Source of the DNA: a virus
DNA: 28,093 bases
Direction: 5' to 3' (one strand)
IMG/VR virus record: IMGVR_UViG_3300045049_000121
Span: 1 to 28,093 of that record
This document shows, piece after piece, positions 21,758 to 26,357 of this stretch (the first letter of the stretch is position 1; each line of letters starts with the position of its first letter). A program made the translations under genes and the position numbers. The notes beneath the pieces were generated by a model that searched no databases, was not told the DNA's origin, and was given only the letters and a program-made list of their open reading frames with translations.

Positions 21758-22025
21758 CCGGCGGCACCGCTCGCCGGGTACACTTTCGCTTTTCGATTAA
21801 TACATTCTTTGGGATCTGCGGAAGCAAAACCAGAAATCAAATAAATCGAAGACGCCGCCGCGCTGACGAATCTGCGTGCGAGCGAAGCGAGTTAGCAGTG
21901 AGTCGAGCGAGCGGCACCTGGCTCTGCGAAGCAGATGCCAGACTAAGATTTTTAGTATCTTATTATTTCATAATCCATAGAATCAGAGTAATCTAATAAG
22001 ATACTAAAAACCAAAAACACGAATT
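21758..22025. repeat. Gene-free region with a hairpin and a 17-bp inverted repeat
   Basis: No convincing gene lies between 21758 and 22060. The first 140 bp are GC-rich with repeated GCGAGCGA-type runs. At 21918-21941 CTGGCTCTGC-GAA-GCAGATGCCAG forms a hairpin with one bulge, followed by ATTTTTAG. Then TTTTTAGTATCTTATTA (21949-21965) and its exact reverse complement (21994-22010) form a perfect 17-bp inverted repeat with a 28-nt spacer. It could act as a two-way terminator insulating the early promoter, or as a protein site. Confidence 0.7.
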
Positions 22026-22054
22026 TTGACGCTTATTCGCTTCGTCCGTATAAT
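22026..22054 (+). promoter_or_regulatory. Strong sigma70-type promoter TTGACG-17-TATAAT
   Basis: The -35 TTGACG (22026-22031) and a consensus -10 TATAAT (22049-22054) are spaced by exactly 17 bp. Transcription would start near 22061, where TAAATA begins, so the first product is the structured RNA at 22061-22197. Read-through would express the early genes. This is the best promoter in the window. Confidence 0.88.
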
Positions 22055-22060
22055 CTAGTG

Positions 22061-22197
22061 TAAATAAAGAAGAACAAGCAACATGCAGGTTGCGTAGGTT
22101 CCGACACAGAATTCATTAGGAATTGCACCGCAATGGTGCATAAGGTTGAGAACCCCGTATGTCGCTGCATCGATGTACGGGGTTTTCCCTTTTTAAC
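22061..22197 (+). ncRNA. Structured RNA 1, kissing-loop architecture
   Basis: The start is set by the promoter just upstream and the end by a terminator-like hairpin with T-rich tail. The 5' hairpin is GCAAC-ATGCAG-GTTGC (22078-22093). The middle holds AATTC/GAATT and GCACC-GCAAT-GGTGC hairpins. The 3' hairpin pairs 22151-22164 with 22171-22184 (14 bp, two wobbles) and leaves the 6-nt loop CTGCAT. That loop is the exact complement of the 5' loop ATGCAG. No ORF is seen. A related RNA with other loop sequences lies at 23219-23334. Function unknown; it could be a trans-acting RNA or a leader that controls read-through. Confidence 0.7.
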
Positions 22198-22215
22198 TGA
22201 TAACAATAAGAAAAT

Positions 22216-23160
22216 ATGCAGATTTTCGATCTCCCCAAGAAATCAAACCTGGCTTACCTAGACTGCCAGTACTTCCACAACGATCCTAAGCCGGGCGTTG
22301 CAGAACACATCATCAAGGTACAGTACCGCACAAAGCGCGGTGAGCCACAAAGCTTTGTCATTCCAATTACGTGCGACCAGTACCGTATAACGCGCATTGC
22401 TAAAAATGCGATCGGCATAGACGGCAGCAAGCTTGTGAAAGCAAAATCTGCAATGTTGCGCGACTCTGGTATTCCACACTACTTCGGCTTCCGCCTCGTG
22501 TCCTTTGTGCAGATGGCTGGTCCTAAGAAGCGGTTTAAGAAGAAGTCAGACGCCAATACACAGTGCTGGGTGTATGTACACGACGACAACCACCTCGAAG
22601 TCGAACTGCTTTGGGCTGGTGAAACCATCAACGTCCACCTGAACACCATCGAAGATCGCACGAACGATAAGCAGAGTTGGGCTATTGGTCGTTATGACGC
22701 AGAAGAAGAACTACTACAAGCAATCGAGACAAGACGAAATGGAAGAAGTGACACTCGCGCAACTATTGCGCATGACCAAAGCCGAGAAGAAAGCGTTTGC
22801 AACGCGGAAGCAACAACAGCGCGAAGCGGAACGAGCAGTGAGCCAACAACAGTACGACAAAGCGGTACACGAAGCCGAACGATGGGCGCTGACCAACTCG
22901 TTGCCAGCATTGCAGGGAACGGTGAAGCAGATCGCCTATGCACAAGTCATCAGATACAACTGGCTTCACAAGCGCGTCAACAGCAAGTACCAGCAGAAGC
23001 AGTTTCTGCAGATCGTGACCGAAAGCCAGCTCGAAGCTTTTCTCAGTCTTTTAAGGAAAGAGCAAGACAGTACATGGTGGATCGTGACCAATGGGGAGTA
23101 TGGGCACCCGAGGAAGTATCTCCAACACATGATGGACTCGGAACCCGCTTTCGTTTTTAA
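22216..23160 (+). CDS. Early-region hypothetical protein; 3' half overlaps the next gene
   Basis: The frame from ATG 22216 is 314 codons. The first 165 or so look like a real globular protein (MQIFDLPKKSNLAYLDCQYF; CWVYVHDDNHLEVELLWAGE). From about 22694 the frame overlaps the next gene for 467 nt and turns into Arg/Ser/Thr/Ala-rich sequence that looks like a shadow of that gene. The protein may truly be this long, or a +1 shift between 22643 and 22694 may join it to the next gene, since that frame is open there. The ribosome site is weak (AATAAGAAA). It follows structured RNA 1. Family unknown. Confidence 0.55.
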   Translation: MQIFDLPKKSNLAYLDCQYFHNDPKPGVAEHIIKVQYRTKRGEPQSFVIPITCDQYRITRIAKNAIGIDGSKLVKAKSAMLRDSGIPHYFGFRLVSFVQMAGPKKRFKKKSDANTQCWVYVHDDNHLEVELLWAGETINVHLNTIEDRTNDKQSWAIGRYDAEEELLQAIETRRNGRSDTRATIAHDQSREESVCNAEATTARSGTSSEPTTVRQSGTRSRTMGADQLVASIAGNGEADRLCTSHQIQLASQARQQQVPAEAVSADRDRKPARSFSQSFKERARQYMVDRDQWGVWAPEEVSPTHDGLGTRFRF

Positions 23161-23221
23161 GATTGCTTTCGAAGAAGTGGATTTGGCGCGGATTGCCAGT
23201 AGTCCTATAGCAGACAGCTAA
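22694..23221 (+). CDS. Early-region helical hypothetical protein
   Basis: I chose ATG 22694 (MTQKKNYYKQSRQDEMEEVT); there is no strong ribosome site, so translation may be coupled to, or frameshifted from, the gene at 22216. The 175-residue protein has a Lys/Glu/Gln coiled region (about 25-65). LPALQGTVKQIAYAQVIRYN follows, a G-T/S-x-KQI-x-A-x2-IR pattern that I recall from unknown plasmid and phage proteins. The C-terminal MDSEPAFVFKIAFEEVDL resembles the shared motif of the genes at 23352-25441. The codons read like real protein throughout. The stop overlaps the TAAATA that heads structured RNA 2. Confidence 0.65.
   Translation: MTQKKNYYKQSRQDEMEEVTLAQLLRMTKAEKKAFATRKQQQREAERAVSQQQYDKAVHEAERWALTNSLPALQGTVKQIAYAQVIRYNWLHKRVNSKYQQKQFLQIVTESQLEAFLSLLRKEQDSTWWIVTNGEYGHPRKYLQHMMDSEPAFVFKIAFEEVDLARIASSPIADS
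23183..23211 (+). promoter_or_regulatory. Candidate promoter for structured RNA 2, TTGGCG-17-TATAGC
   Basis: TTGGCG (23183-23188) and TATAGC (23206-23211) are spaced by 17 bp inside the end of the gene at 22694. TAAATA begins 13 nt after the start of the -10 box, against 12 nt at the strong promoter of RNA 1. The equal layout supports a real but weaker promoter. Confidence 0.5.
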
Positions 23222-23334
23222 ATAGAAATGCGACGGACGAGGTTGCAGGATCTCCACAATTACTTTTGTACCGTTCCTTAACAGGAACACCGAAAGGCCT
23301 ATTACATCTCGTCCGTGTAATAGGCCTTTCACTT
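23219..23334 (+). ncRNA. Structured RNA 2, kissing-loop architecture
   Basis: The 5' hairpin is TGCGAC-GGACGAG-GTTGCA (23229-23247). The middle holds ACAA-6-TTGT and GTTCC-6-GGAAC hairpins. The 3' hairpin pairs AAAGGCCTATTACA (23293-23306) with TGTAATAGGCCTTT (23316-23329). Its loop contains CTCGTCC, the exact complement of the 7-nt 5' loop GGACGAG. After GTTGC both RNAs share AGG, TC, CC, CACA and AATT in the same order. The T tail is weak (CACTTTT), so read-through into 23352 is likely. It may be a leader, a separate RNA, or both. Confidence 0.68.
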
Positions 23335-23351
23335 TTAGGAGAATAAGAATA

Positions 23352-23564
23352 ATGACAACAACATACATGGTTACGCTGCAACACATGTCTTACGGTGCTG
23401 GCTACGAAACGTGGTCATGGTTGAGGGAACGTAGCATCGAGCACGAGATGAATCTGGGCAAATTGCTTAACGAAGGCGGAATAGGCTTTGACCATGTTTC
23501 ATACGGCTTCAGCAACGACGCCGACGCAGTGCTGTTTAAATTGACGTTCTCAAAGTATCTATAA
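23352..23564 (+). CDS. Small paralogue 1 (DA-x2-FKL motif family)
   Basis: The 70-residue protein begins MTTTYMVTLQHMSYGAGYET and ends FSNDADAVLFKLTFSKYL. The C-terminal pattern F-x-ND-x-DA-x2-FKL-x-F-x2-YL recurs in neighbouring genes, so they form a tandem family of likely common origin. The N-terminal half is a strand followed by a helix (TWSWLRERSIEHEMNLGKLL). The ribosome site AGGAGAATAAGAATA before the ATG closely matches that of the next gene (AGGAGAATAACAAC), which also supports duplication. It lies just after structured RNA 2. Function unknown. Confidence 0.75.
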   Translation: MTTTYMVTLQHMSYGAGYETWSWLRERSIEHEMNLGKLLNEGGIGFDHVSYGFSNDADAVLFKLTFSKYL

Positions 23565-23586
23565 GCGGCCAAGGAGAATAACAACA

Positions 23587-23868
23587 ATGACAATGAAATC
23601 CGTCACAGTAAGACTGTCAAATATAGTAAGACTGTCAAATGACTGGAATGTACTCTTAGACGCGTTGGAAGTTATGCGTGACTGGTGCAAAGCGAACGCG
23701 GACACTTTCTTATGCGATATACCGCTAGACTGCATTACTCCGCGAACAAATAAACTAACAAATGAATTCGTAGAGGCTCTAATCGCATGTAAATCGAAGC
23801 CAACATTCACGTTCGGAAACGACACAGACGCAGTTGCATTCAAACTGACGTTTGCCGACTACCTATAA
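23587..23868 (+). CDS. Small paralogue 2 (DA-x2-FKL motif family)
   Basis: The 93-residue protein has the C-terminus FTFGNDTDAVAFKLTFADYL, the clearest match to paralogue 1. Its N-terminal part contains a short internal direct repeat: the codons for TVRLSNIVRLSN repeat VRLSN. A helix with Trp and Cys follows (LLDALEVMRDWCKANADTFL). A strong AAGGAG site precedes ATG 23587, with a second in-frame ATG two codons on. There is no membrane span. It sits 22 bp after paralogue 1 and 44 bp before the next. Confidence 0.75.
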   Translation: MTMKSVTVRLSNIVRLSNDWNVLLDALEVMRDWCKANADTFLCDIPLDCITPRTNKLTNEFVEALIACKSKPTFTFGNDTDAVAFKLTFADYL

Positions 23869-23912
23869 TAACCAAGATGCCACACCTTAAGTGACACTGA
23901 TAGTAAAAGACA

Positions 23913-24221
23913 ATGACAACAAATACTAAAAACCTGCGAGACGCAGCAGCAGCACCACAACAAGAGATTGAATGGATCAAGCTCGAAAAGACGGATAATC
24001 CCGACAATCTGTTTCCCATTGAAGTAGGATTCTCAGTCGGCAAACTGAATCTCGACCATTGGCTGAATCTGCACAGAGACGCAGTCAGCTACATGGAAGT
24101 GACCGCGAATCAAACAGTAATCGTATTCTTCAAAGAAATAGTTGCGGCGAACAAATTCCGCTACACGTTCATGGATCACGTTTGGGTACGTGCAGAAGCG
24201 TCACAGGGAGACAAACAATGA
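23913..24221 (+). CDS. Small paralogue 3, divergent
   Basis: The 102-residue protein has a polar N-terminal extension and the C-terminal segment VIVFFKEIVAANKFRYTFMD. This matches the shared motif more loosely, with FKE in place of FND, Ala kept and FRYTF for FKLTF. A short tail, VWVRAEASQGDKQ, follows. Only a weak ribosome site (AAAAGA) precedes the ATG. Its stop overlaps the next start by 4 bp (ATGA), so the two are translated together. Function unknown. Confidence 0.7.
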   Translation: MTTNTKNLRDAAAAPQQEIEWIKLEKTDNPDNLFPIEVGFSVGKLNLDHWLNLHRDAVSYMEVTANQTVIVFFKEIVAANKFRYTFMDHVWVRAEASQGDKQ

Positions 24222-24499
24222 CAATGGTTTATGTATATGAAATCCGCAACACAAAGGTTACCCCACAAGTGCGCATTGACATCGAGACTGAGGCCAAGAC
24301 ATGGGCAATACACAATGGCATTTGCTTTCACCACAATGATGCCAACGGTATTTCTTTGTTAATGCTAAAAGGCGACACCGAGGCAATCGCATTTCATCTT
24401 ATGTTCGGCGAAAAGATGAGGCTTTGTTTCAAGCAAGACGCCTCCGAGATGGTTAAGTTCAACTACGGTGCCGCTTTCAATAACTGGATACAACAATGA
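24218..24499 (+). CDS. Small paralogue 4 (variant motif)
   Basis: I chose ATG 24218, coupled to the previous stop and preceded by GGGAG, although the frame is open back to 24059. The 93-residue protein begins MTMVYVYEIRNTKVTPQVRI. The variant motif LKGDTEAIAFHLMFGEKMRL lies near the middle and is followed by a 30-residue tail, unlike the other members. The helix ETEAKTWAIHNGICF aligns in position with the Trp/Cys helix of paralogues 2 and 5. The stop overlaps the next ATG by 4 bp. Confidence 0.72.
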   Translation: MTMVYVYEIRNTKVTPQVRIDIETEAKTWAIHNGICFHHNDANGISLLMLKGDTEAIAFHLMFGEKMRLCFKQDASEMVKFNYGAAFNNWIQQ

Positions 24500-24786
24500 C
24501 CGACACCTATGAAGTAACCGTACATCCAAAGCTTGTCGCAACTCTGGTAGAGATGCATAAATGGTGCGACGAGAACACCAACGAATTTGGTCATTCAATC
24601 TCACTTTCAACAGATGATGCCGGGCTTATTCTTGCCGATGGCGGAGGCGACGATTGCGCTATCGTAGTCGCCGCTCGGCGCGAGGGTTATGTTGAGGTGC
24701 TCAAATACCTTAACGAGGTGCAGTTCTACTTCTTCAACGATTTAGACGCCATGCATTTCAAGCTGCGGTGGTGCGAGTACCTGTAA
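24496..24786 (+). CDS. Small paralogue 5 (DA-x2-FKL motif family)
   Basis: The 96-residue protein begins MTDTYEVTVHPKLVATLVEM, has the helix VEMHKWCDENTNEFG, and ends with FYFFNDLDAMHFKLRWCEYL, a full match to the family motif. A Gly/Asp-rich turn (ADGGGDDC) lies in the middle. It overlaps the previous gene by 4 bp and the next by 1 bp (TAATG), so it sits in the centre of a tightly coupled operon. Function unknown. Confidence 0.75.
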   Translation: MTDTYEVTVHPKLVATLVEMHKWCDENTNEFGHSISLSTDDAGLILADGGGDDCAIVVAARREGYVEVLKYLNEVQFYFFNDLDAMHFKLRWCEYL

Positions 24787-25075: not shown

Positions 25076-25177
25076 ATGACAAACACCATGACTAAGTATT
25101 TGCATGTCTATTTATCTCCCGACTTACTCGTCTTCTGTGTCGTAGATAGAATATTCAAACTTATCGCCAAAAACTAG
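25076..25177 (+). other. Possible truncated paralogue start (33 codons)
   Basis: ATG 25076 has GGAG eight bases upstream and opens MTNTMTKYLHVYLSPDLLVF, similar in style to the starts of the plus-strand paralogues (MTxTY-x-V). It runs antisense into the end of the gene at 25124 and stops soon after. It may be a paralogue start broken when the inverted copy arrived, or chance. Confidence 0.25.
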
Positions 25178-25441
25178 CTTGAACTGTAGTGCGTCTAGCT
25201 CGTTGTAGAACGCCCATGTAGGTAGCTCGAAGCCCCATACGCCTTTCTCGCCTTTATGCTCAATGTATGGTGTCTTCACGAAGTTCCCAATGTCGTTTGA
25301 TGCGATCCACGCATCGGCCTCTTCTTCTTCCGGTGTCTTGAAATATTCGGGTGGGCGGCCGAACACCGTGTATAGCGCCACGCCGTTCAGCACCGCGGCG
25401 ATTTCCTGCACTTTGATGGTGAATAGATGTAGTTGTTTCAT
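25124..25441 (-). CDS. Inverted paralogue 6 (DA-x2-FKL motif family)
   Basis: The 105-residue protein has the near-C-terminal motif WAFYNELDALQFKLVFGDKF, clearly the family motif, followed by an acidic tail (YSIYDTEDE). The N-terminus (MKQLHLFTIKVQEIAAVLNG) is a strand then a helix; an acidic EEEEADAW segment lies in the middle. It is on the opposite strand from the other members, with its own AAGGAG site and TAAATA motif. This suggests an inversion or a separate acquisition within the family. Confidence 0.75.
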   Translation of the reverse strand: MKQLHLFTIKVQEIAAVLNGVALYTVFGRPPEYFKTPEEEEADAWIASNDIGNFVKTPYIEHKGEKGVWGFELPTWAFYNELDALQFKLVFGDKFEYSIYDTEDE

Positions 25442-26262: not shown

Positions 26263-26287
26263 AAAGGCCACCAACGGTGGCCTTTTT
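26263..26287 (+). terminator. Strong rho-independent terminator
   Basis: AAAGGCCACC and GGTGGCCTTT form a perfect 10-bp stem around a 3-nt loop, followed by a T tract. It separates the two-gene unit from the HNH gene. Confidence 0.92.
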
Positions 26288-26298
26288 CATTGGTCCGC

Positions 26299-26357
26299 TA
26301 AATAAAGATAACAAAACGCTCGAATTGGAGAGCGGCATGCAGCGGAAACCAAAATGA
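26299..26357 (+). promoter_or_regulatory. HNH leader: TAAATA motif, hairpin and 6-codon upstream ORF
   Basis: TAAATA (26299-26304) lies 32 nt before ATG 26337. The leader has the hairpin CGCTC-GAATTGGA-GAGCG with the ribosome site GGAG in its loop edge. That site fits ATG 26337, which encodes only MQRKPK and stops at TGA 26355-26357, overlapping the HNH start by 4 bp. The HNH gene itself has only a poor site (CGGAAAC), so it is probably translated by coupling to the upstream ORF. Confidence 0.55.

Follow-up and report, generated by a model that had tools for sequence, protein, structure and literature searches.

Two putative RNAs of a phage genome, RNA1 and RNA2, were found to share a layout in which the loop of a 5' hairpin (H1) is fully complementary to the loop of a terminator hairpin (H3) located 35-110 nt away. 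The window, i.e., the whole stretch of DNA that was analyzed, spans 28,093 nucleotides of the virus record IMGVR_UViG_3300045049_000121. Based on sequence comparison, RNA1 and RNA2 very probably belong to a structural RNA family. The best explanation, to which we assign a probability of about 0.45, is that these elements are cis-acting leaders (attenuators) with an intramolecular loop-loop clasp that would also release a compact terminated RNA. By this mechanism, the nascent RNA would fold H1, and the loop of H3 would then pair with it during terminator formation, such that the H1 loop, of 7 nt or, in RNA1, 6 nt, and the terminator loop would form an intramolecular kissing clasp. With the leader positioned between promoter and start codon, termination before the gene would be the default, and the downstream gene would be made only upon read-through of the terminator by RNA polymerase. 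The clasp may fix one leader shape that sets read-through or may let a factor or condition alter it, and the terminated product would be compact, with a hairpin closing each end. We infer transcription and termination of the leader, the regulation of this termination and a signal or factor for it. The elements and their neighboring genes are as follows.

22026..22054, + strand: sigma70-type promoter TTGACG-17-TATAAT driving RNA1 (11/12 consensus matches)
22061-22195, + strand: RNA1, whole element
22061..22066, + strand: TAAATA motif at the 5' start of RNA1, late-promoter-like, with predicted purine start at 22072
22078..22093, + strand: RNA1 hairpin H1, stem GCAAC/GTTGC, loop L1 ATGCAG at 22083-22088
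22125..22139, + strand: RNA1 middle hairpin H2, stem GCACC/GGTGC, loop GCAAT
22148..22187, + strand: RNA1 terminator hairpin H3, loop L3 CTGCAT at 22165-22170, then a U-rich stretch that reaches about 22195
22216..22740 (end approximate), + strand: gene gA, function unassigned, starting 29 nt past H3 of RNA1; its open frame continues to 23160, overlapping gB
22694..23221, + strand: gene gB, overlapping the gA frame and ending in a TAA stop with which the RNA2 TAAATA begins
23219-23337, + strand: RNA2, whole element
23219..23224, + strand: TAAATA motif of RNA2; if it is a promoter, RNA2 is predicted to start at 23230, the base of H1
23229..23247, + strand: RNA2 hairpin H1, stem TGCGAC/GTTGCA, loop L1 GGACGAG at 23235-23241
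23273..23288, + strand: RNA2 middle hairpin H2, stem GTTCCT/AGGAAC, loop TAAC
23292..23330, + strand: RNA2 terminator hairpin H3, loop L3 CTCGTCC at 23308-23314, then ACTTTTAGG
23352..23564, + strand: small gene directly 3' of RNA2, with a Shine-Dalgarno AGGAG just beyond the terminator

The 5' hairpin, the 3' terminator-like hairpin and the full complementarity of their loops are present in both RNAs as a preliminary description of this DNA had reported, and in RNA2 the complementarity reaches 8 nt if the flanking C/G is included. Loop-loop duplex energies of -8.2 (RNA1) and -14.6 kcal/mol (RNA2) were calculated, and no comparable loop energy was detected in any other TAAATA-led hairpin pair of the window. 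Folding z-scores were -5.2 for RNA1 and -4.7 for RNA2. In a scan for an H1-loop k-mer whose reverse complement lies 35-110 nt further on in the loop of a strong hairpin, plus a T-run, not one structure of RNA1/RNA2 grade was found in 300 Markov-shuffled windows (8.4 Mb). Taken together with the relatives presented below, the folding and shuffle analyses support the proposal of structured elements with an internal loop-loop helix, which look like real ones. Some details of the preliminary description were modified: of the two middle hairpins proposed, RNA2 has one that is clear and one that is weak, and the short words said to be common to both RNAs after GTTGC are weak, with MAFFT revealing little primary-sequence similarity. 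Thus, the label 'paralogues' for RNA1 and RNA2 rests on their layout.

A 17-bp-spaced promoter had been proposed for both RNAs. The RNA1 promoter is strong and is also conserved ahead of the leader of contig G003, but none was reported by the scan for RNA2, for which the sequence recognized by eye (TTGGCG-17-TATAGC, 8/12 matches) is weak. The TAAATA motif is likewise common to both RNAs, as had been noted, but is unspecific, as it occurs throughout the intergenic DNA of this phage group. The window has 13 such sites, on the + strand (e.g., 22061, 23219, 25510 and 26299) and on the minus strand (25474, 25114, 21217, 19268, 18943, 17557, 10301, 8280 and 6052), and the motif is enriched in several relatives. 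Intergenic TAAATA ahead of genes was also observed in G001-G004, G008, G251 and G300. The motif usually has A or C just before it, and a purine is found 6 nt after it in 87% of 83 intergenic sites of the phage group. Late promoters of phage T4 have a TATAAATA-like motif and a purine start 6 nt past the last A, a geometry that the TAAATA sites fit. A second recurrent TAAATA-led small RNA candidate was observed in the window (minus strand 25114-25035), L087 (+ 4188), L090 (minus 10479), L374 (+ 5634), L376 (minus 15329) and L381 (minus 9936), with a terminator where checked and a shared word GTCAT (GTCATGGTGTTTGT in some); its pyrimidine stretch (CTCTCC, CCTCCC) could pair with ribosome-binding sites.

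The terminase of the window is 71% identical to that of a Burkholderia guangdongensis prophage and 74-88% identical to the terminases of five IMG/VR contigs. With the gA protein as sole query, no relative was recovered among viral contigs, and BLAST of the region against isolated phages returned nothing. The RNA2 design, consisting of H1, usually H2 and the terminator H3, was detected in about 12 phages of unrelated sequence (GC 31-59%), most with one copy, as leaders of 90-140 nt with a spacer of 46-76 nt between the loops. The leaders of G003_1, G008 and L510/L511 were reached without use of a loop pattern. G003 has a leader with GGACAAG/CTTGTCC loops at the RNA1 site, after the same promoter, and an RNA2 orthologue (GGACGAG/CTCGTCC); the small gene downstream of this orthologue starts ATGACAACA, like its counterpart in the window. 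G008, a prophage of Burkholderia guangdongensis DHOM02 that was reached via its terminase, carries an RNA2 in synteny, again with GGACGAG/CTCGTCC loops. A search with gA homologues (found in L436, L510, L511, G004 and G251) led to L510 and L511, which are 95% identical to each other and carry a gA leader with GGACAAG/CTTGTCC; L511 is the same contig as L436. At the RNA1 site of G002, G004 and G251, H1 and the terminator are kept while the loops, TGCAAYG/TGTGGTG, pair poorly (energies of -1.4 for G004 and, for the best alternative hairpin pair, -2.9 for G251). Thus, homologues with non-complementary loops, which the preliminary description had named as grounds for refuting it, do exist, at this one site. 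The leaders of gA homologues hence come in three forms: ATGCAG/CTGCAT, GGACAAG/CTTGTCC and non-complementary. RNA2 matches the loops GGACRAG/CTYGTCC, and RNA1 departs from them, either as an outlier or as a member in a looser sense. Non-complementary leaders at the RNA1 site of related phages were observed in L086 (minus 10172-10050), L090 (6985-7090) and L380 (minus 15608-15500); both TGCAAYG and TGTGGTG loops are kept while the stems change, and 6/7 positions pair with wobbles, leaving one A-G mismatch.

The remaining members were collected with loop-pattern queries (TAAATA..GGACGAG..CTCGTCC and TAAATA..GGACRAG..CTYGTCC), for which matches were mostly chance or tRNA-like. Those with H1 and H3 stems, which the patterns did not request, were L385 (GC 31%), L394, L395, L473, L468, L436 and L448 (GC 59%). 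L122/L150/L191 came from an earlier loop pattern, and L433 and L477 from an unrestricted scan of the pattern-fetched contigs, the latter two with no TAAATA on the proposed strand. tRNA-like matches (L386-L390 and L397) were excluded by eye. By BLAST against isolated phages, L473 had a weak methylase match to cyanophages and nothing else, and the pattern scan of T4, eight cyanophages and HTVC008M detected no family member. Samples of 65, 399 and 399 genomes from the genus, order and phylum of the Burkholderia host (some overlapping, the genus search being limited to the GGACGAG form) were matched by the TAAATA-form pattern only in G008 and G774, the latter an apparent chance match, and the kissing-leader family is thus rare outside phages.

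Since MAFFT of full RNAs aligned the loop anchors only, the analysis relied on a descriptor scan, controlled by shuffling, in place of a covariance model. Thirteen members were aligned as 38-nt skeletons (five H1, seven loop and seven H3 pairs, with linkers and bulges removed). All 19 counted pairs were found to be standard in the 13 members, which for the stems is given by the cutting of the skeletons, such that the information comes from the loop helix and from how varied the pair types are. By this approach, 5/5 H1 and 7/7 H3 pairs were observed to change on both sides, among members that are not fully independent, as stems are common to G009, G010, L436 and L468. The loop helix was 100% paired, with six of seven pairs invariant and the seventh either G-C (7 members) or A-U (6 members), with 0 mixed. 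Most members were collected with loop patterns, and this invariance is therefore partly imposed, while the R-Y covariation and the stems are not. Mixed loops, which the TAAATA pattern allowed, were detected in 0/12 stem-bearing matches compared to 11/60 stemless ones, in which matched loops are inflated by tRNA acceptor stems. The RNA is also more conserved than its surroundings: between L510 and L511, the RNA has 0/138 differences compared to 27/800 upstream and 17/800 downstream, and between G009 and G011 it has 5/127 compared to 408/864 and 136/903 in the flanks.

These comparisons refine the covariation that had been proposed between the two loops. The G-C/A-U switch at one position across phages bears it out, but six of the seven loop pairs of the RNA2 type are invariant, and strict covariation of the loops as a general rule was rejected, as loop pairs are mostly invariant while every stem pair changes. 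Compensatory change is similarly seen as a full loop replacement between RNA1 of the window and the homologous-gene leader of L436/L510/L511, but beyond RNA1 the loops are mostly conserved. It is very improbable that the elements are ordinary strong terminators whose loop complementarity reflects chance or local inheritance, a reading already disfavoured. Although the same layout with non-complementary loops in G002, G004 and G251 would suit ordinary terminators, the shuffle test, the recurrence in about 12 dissimilar phages, the covariation and the local conservation argue against them.

We examined the placement of the elements relative to genes. In 11/15 members, an ORF starts 17-45 nt past L3 and TAAATA is absent from the interval; no recognizable promoter motif was found between the terminator and this ORF. 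The other four members (G003_1, G009/G010, L468 and L477) have no gene directly downstream. Many other terminators in these phages are further from the next gene or lack one; for example, a terminator at 26263 of the window is followed by a TAAATA at 26299 and then an HNH gene at 26354. The genes downstream of the leaders are unrelated and include gA and small ORFs in Burkholderia-type phages, a TnpB-like gene (L385), HNH-like genes (L394 and L448) and a nuclease-like gene (L473), the latter three names being read by eye from sequence and not by profile search. Nuclease-like neighbors (TnpB-like, HNH-like, T7 endonuclease I-like and VRR-NUC-like, by eye in L385, L394, L448, L473 and L373) are frequent.

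The hairpins, terminator, loop complementarity, covariation and gene-proximal position that characterize the proposed cis-acting leader thus all come from comparing sequences. Weighing against this leader, the unrelated downstream genes reveal no common regulated pathway, and the leaders of G002, G004 and G251 retain H1 and the terminator but have non-complementary loops. The members revealed no antiterminator that would be mutually exclusive with the terminator; the kissing interaction is compatible with the latter. Possibly, although this is a tentative extension, the elements form a phage-specific RNA class in which the near-invariant 7-bp loop-loop helix is a receptor for a common signal or protein that sets read-through. 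It is equally tentative that the partner of this receptor would be a host factor, a phage factor or RNA polymerase, and that the class was acquired across phages of very different GC.

A less likely alternative to the cis-acting leader is that the terminated transcript is a stable, trans-acting small RNA with H1 at its 5' end, the terminator at its 3' end and the clasp serving as protection or as a surface for a protein. The promoter-like TAAATA, the start predicted at the foot of H1 or close to it, the terminator at the end, the four members without an adjacent downstream gene, the unrelated genes downstream of the others and the loop sequence kept across dissimilar phages are all in keeping with such an RNA. 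By contrast, in most members an ORF follows immediately and no promoter motif intervenes, and there is no conserved single-stranded seed, as the conserved loops are occupied by each other.

The elements are improbable as DNA-level sites, in which two inverted repeats with complementary tips would be recognized by a protein or in single-stranded DNA; that they are transposition, homing or replication sites, considering the TnpB-like and HNH-like genes among the neighbors, is just as improbable. The topology is unchanged in the reverse complement, several members have comparable T-runs on the two strands and nuclease-like genes often adjoin the element, as a DNA element would predict. However, the placement between promoter motif and ORF is consistent, and only the loops are conserved as the stems drift through compensatory changes, which is unusual for double-stranded protein sites. 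Because of the comparable T-runs in several members, the orientation assigned to the RNAs rests partly on TAAATA and the downstream ORF.

Three other candidates were rejected. Attenuation by a leader peptide was set aside as short ORFs begin in H1 of some leaders (RNA2, G008 and L394) and not of others, as judged by eye; CsrA-type binding of GGA in the loop, as the RNA1 loop has no GGA; and tRNA mimicry or a tRNA-like element, as GGACGAG and CTCGTCC sit in hairpin loops and a tRNA search of the window detected none.

The loops could also pair between molecules to form RNA dimers or rings, as the preliminary description had suggested, but this is quite unlikely. Each RNA has both complementary loops, an arrangement known from kissing dimers and from the phi29 packaging RNA (pRNA), a small phage RNA with two complementary loops that forms a ring on the portal with the packaging ATPase. 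However, the spacer of 46-76 nt should favor intramolecular pairing of a 6-7 bp helix, and neither a recurring symmetric feature nor an Rfam match was found. In phi29 the loop pairing is shorter, whereas the RNAs of this TerL/TerS terminase phage have a terminator hairpin and a gene-proximal position, and the window RNAs had no match to pRNA in Rfam at the gathering threshold. RNAI and RNAII of ColE1 likewise form a loop-loop helix through fully complementary 7-nt hairpin loops, but that pairing is intermolecular, between sense and antisense RNAs from overlapping opposite strands, whereas both loops are in one RNA here. As to an antisense partner of the ColE1 type, the opposite strand of the RNA locus folds too, and the promoter scan found no promoter on it. 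The related suggestion that different loops prevent RNA1 and RNA2 from cross-pairing is, like dimers and rings, unsupported: most phages have a single copy, and in G003 the RNA with GGACGAG/CTCGTCC could partly pair with the one that has GGACAAG/CTTGTCC.

A search of Rfam 15 revealed no family at the gathering threshold, the best weak matches being far below it (e.g., 18.4 of 41 bits), and literature searches gave no description, in agreement with the earlier statement that no described RNA class matches. A structured leader with a terminator and tertiary loop pairing is of a known kind; the kissing-leader family itself is absent from Rfam and from the literature found. Terminator loops are usually irrelevant to termination, and one hint that led to the HMP-PP riboswitch was a terminator whose loop is unusually conserved (PMC6478431). 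The conservation of such loops here argues for a role of the loop-loop helix. Like the HMP-PP (thiS) riboswitch, the kissing leaders lie just upstream of a gene and have a terminator with an unusually conserved loop, where a pseudoknot was proposed for HMP-PP (PMC6478431). By contrast, P1 and the terminator of HMP-PP are mutually exclusive whereas the kiss is compatible with the terminator, the HMP-PP genes are all for thiamin synthesis whereas the phage genes are unrelated and thus show no one-pathway association, and the kissing leaders have a separate H1, usually H2 and a 7-bp loop-loop helix (PMC6478431). Inspection of the members revealed no alternative pairing of the terminator base of the HMP-PP type, complementarity being confined to the loops.

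The put RNAs of phage HK022 (putL and putR) are likewise two related structured leaders per phage, one directly after an early promoter, and RNA-level control of termination is similarly plausible for RNA1 and RNA2 (PMC9378689). A put RNA of about 70 nt forms two stem-loops, suppresses downstream termination via the zinc-binding domain of the RNA polymerase beta' subunit and has no terminator of its own, as described in PMC9378689, whereas RNA1 and RNA2 end in a strong terminator hairpin. GOLLD and ROOL are also structured bacterial and phage-associated RNAs of unknown function but are large and homo-oligomeric, compared to the 90-140 nt of the kissing leaders (PMC12286853). By the defining features compared, the family is distinct from the put RNA, pRNA, ColE1 pair and HMP-PP riboswitch. 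In about 12 dissimilar phages, a terminator loop matches the loop of an upstream hairpin, and all stems differ. This shared design, usually located between a promoter and a gene, suggests a kind of phage gene-control RNA that has not been described before. Should the clasp govern read-through, it would act as a compact switch made of RNA alone and potentially as a reusable genetic part; should the terminated RNA function in trans, it would represent a new phage small RNA family. Either outcome would offer a way into the early gene control of temperate phages that are not of the lambda group.

Several additional features were observed near the RNAs. Small proteins with a DADAVxFKLTF-like end adjoin them in several phages (window 23352-24786 and 25124-25441; L191 4777-5082 and 8244-8576; L436; L087), and for the window copies tested, Pfam gave no match and PHROG a weak one at most. 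Beside the kissing RNA in L087 (minus 8610-7980, with no Rfam match) and L191 (minus 5900-5650) lie several hundred non-coding bases with possible structure. Upstream of the early leader, inverted repeats with perfect arms of 17-19 bp and a loop of about 30 nt are found at the same place with different sequence in the window (21949-22010), L510 (2706-2767), L090 (6871-6938) and the equivalent position of L380, and may be a terminator, attachment or regulatory site. In L090, a repeated leader, GAGTCGCAACGATGCGGCCAYAAGGAG, is located at about 8450 and about 8868, ahead of two small G004 genes.
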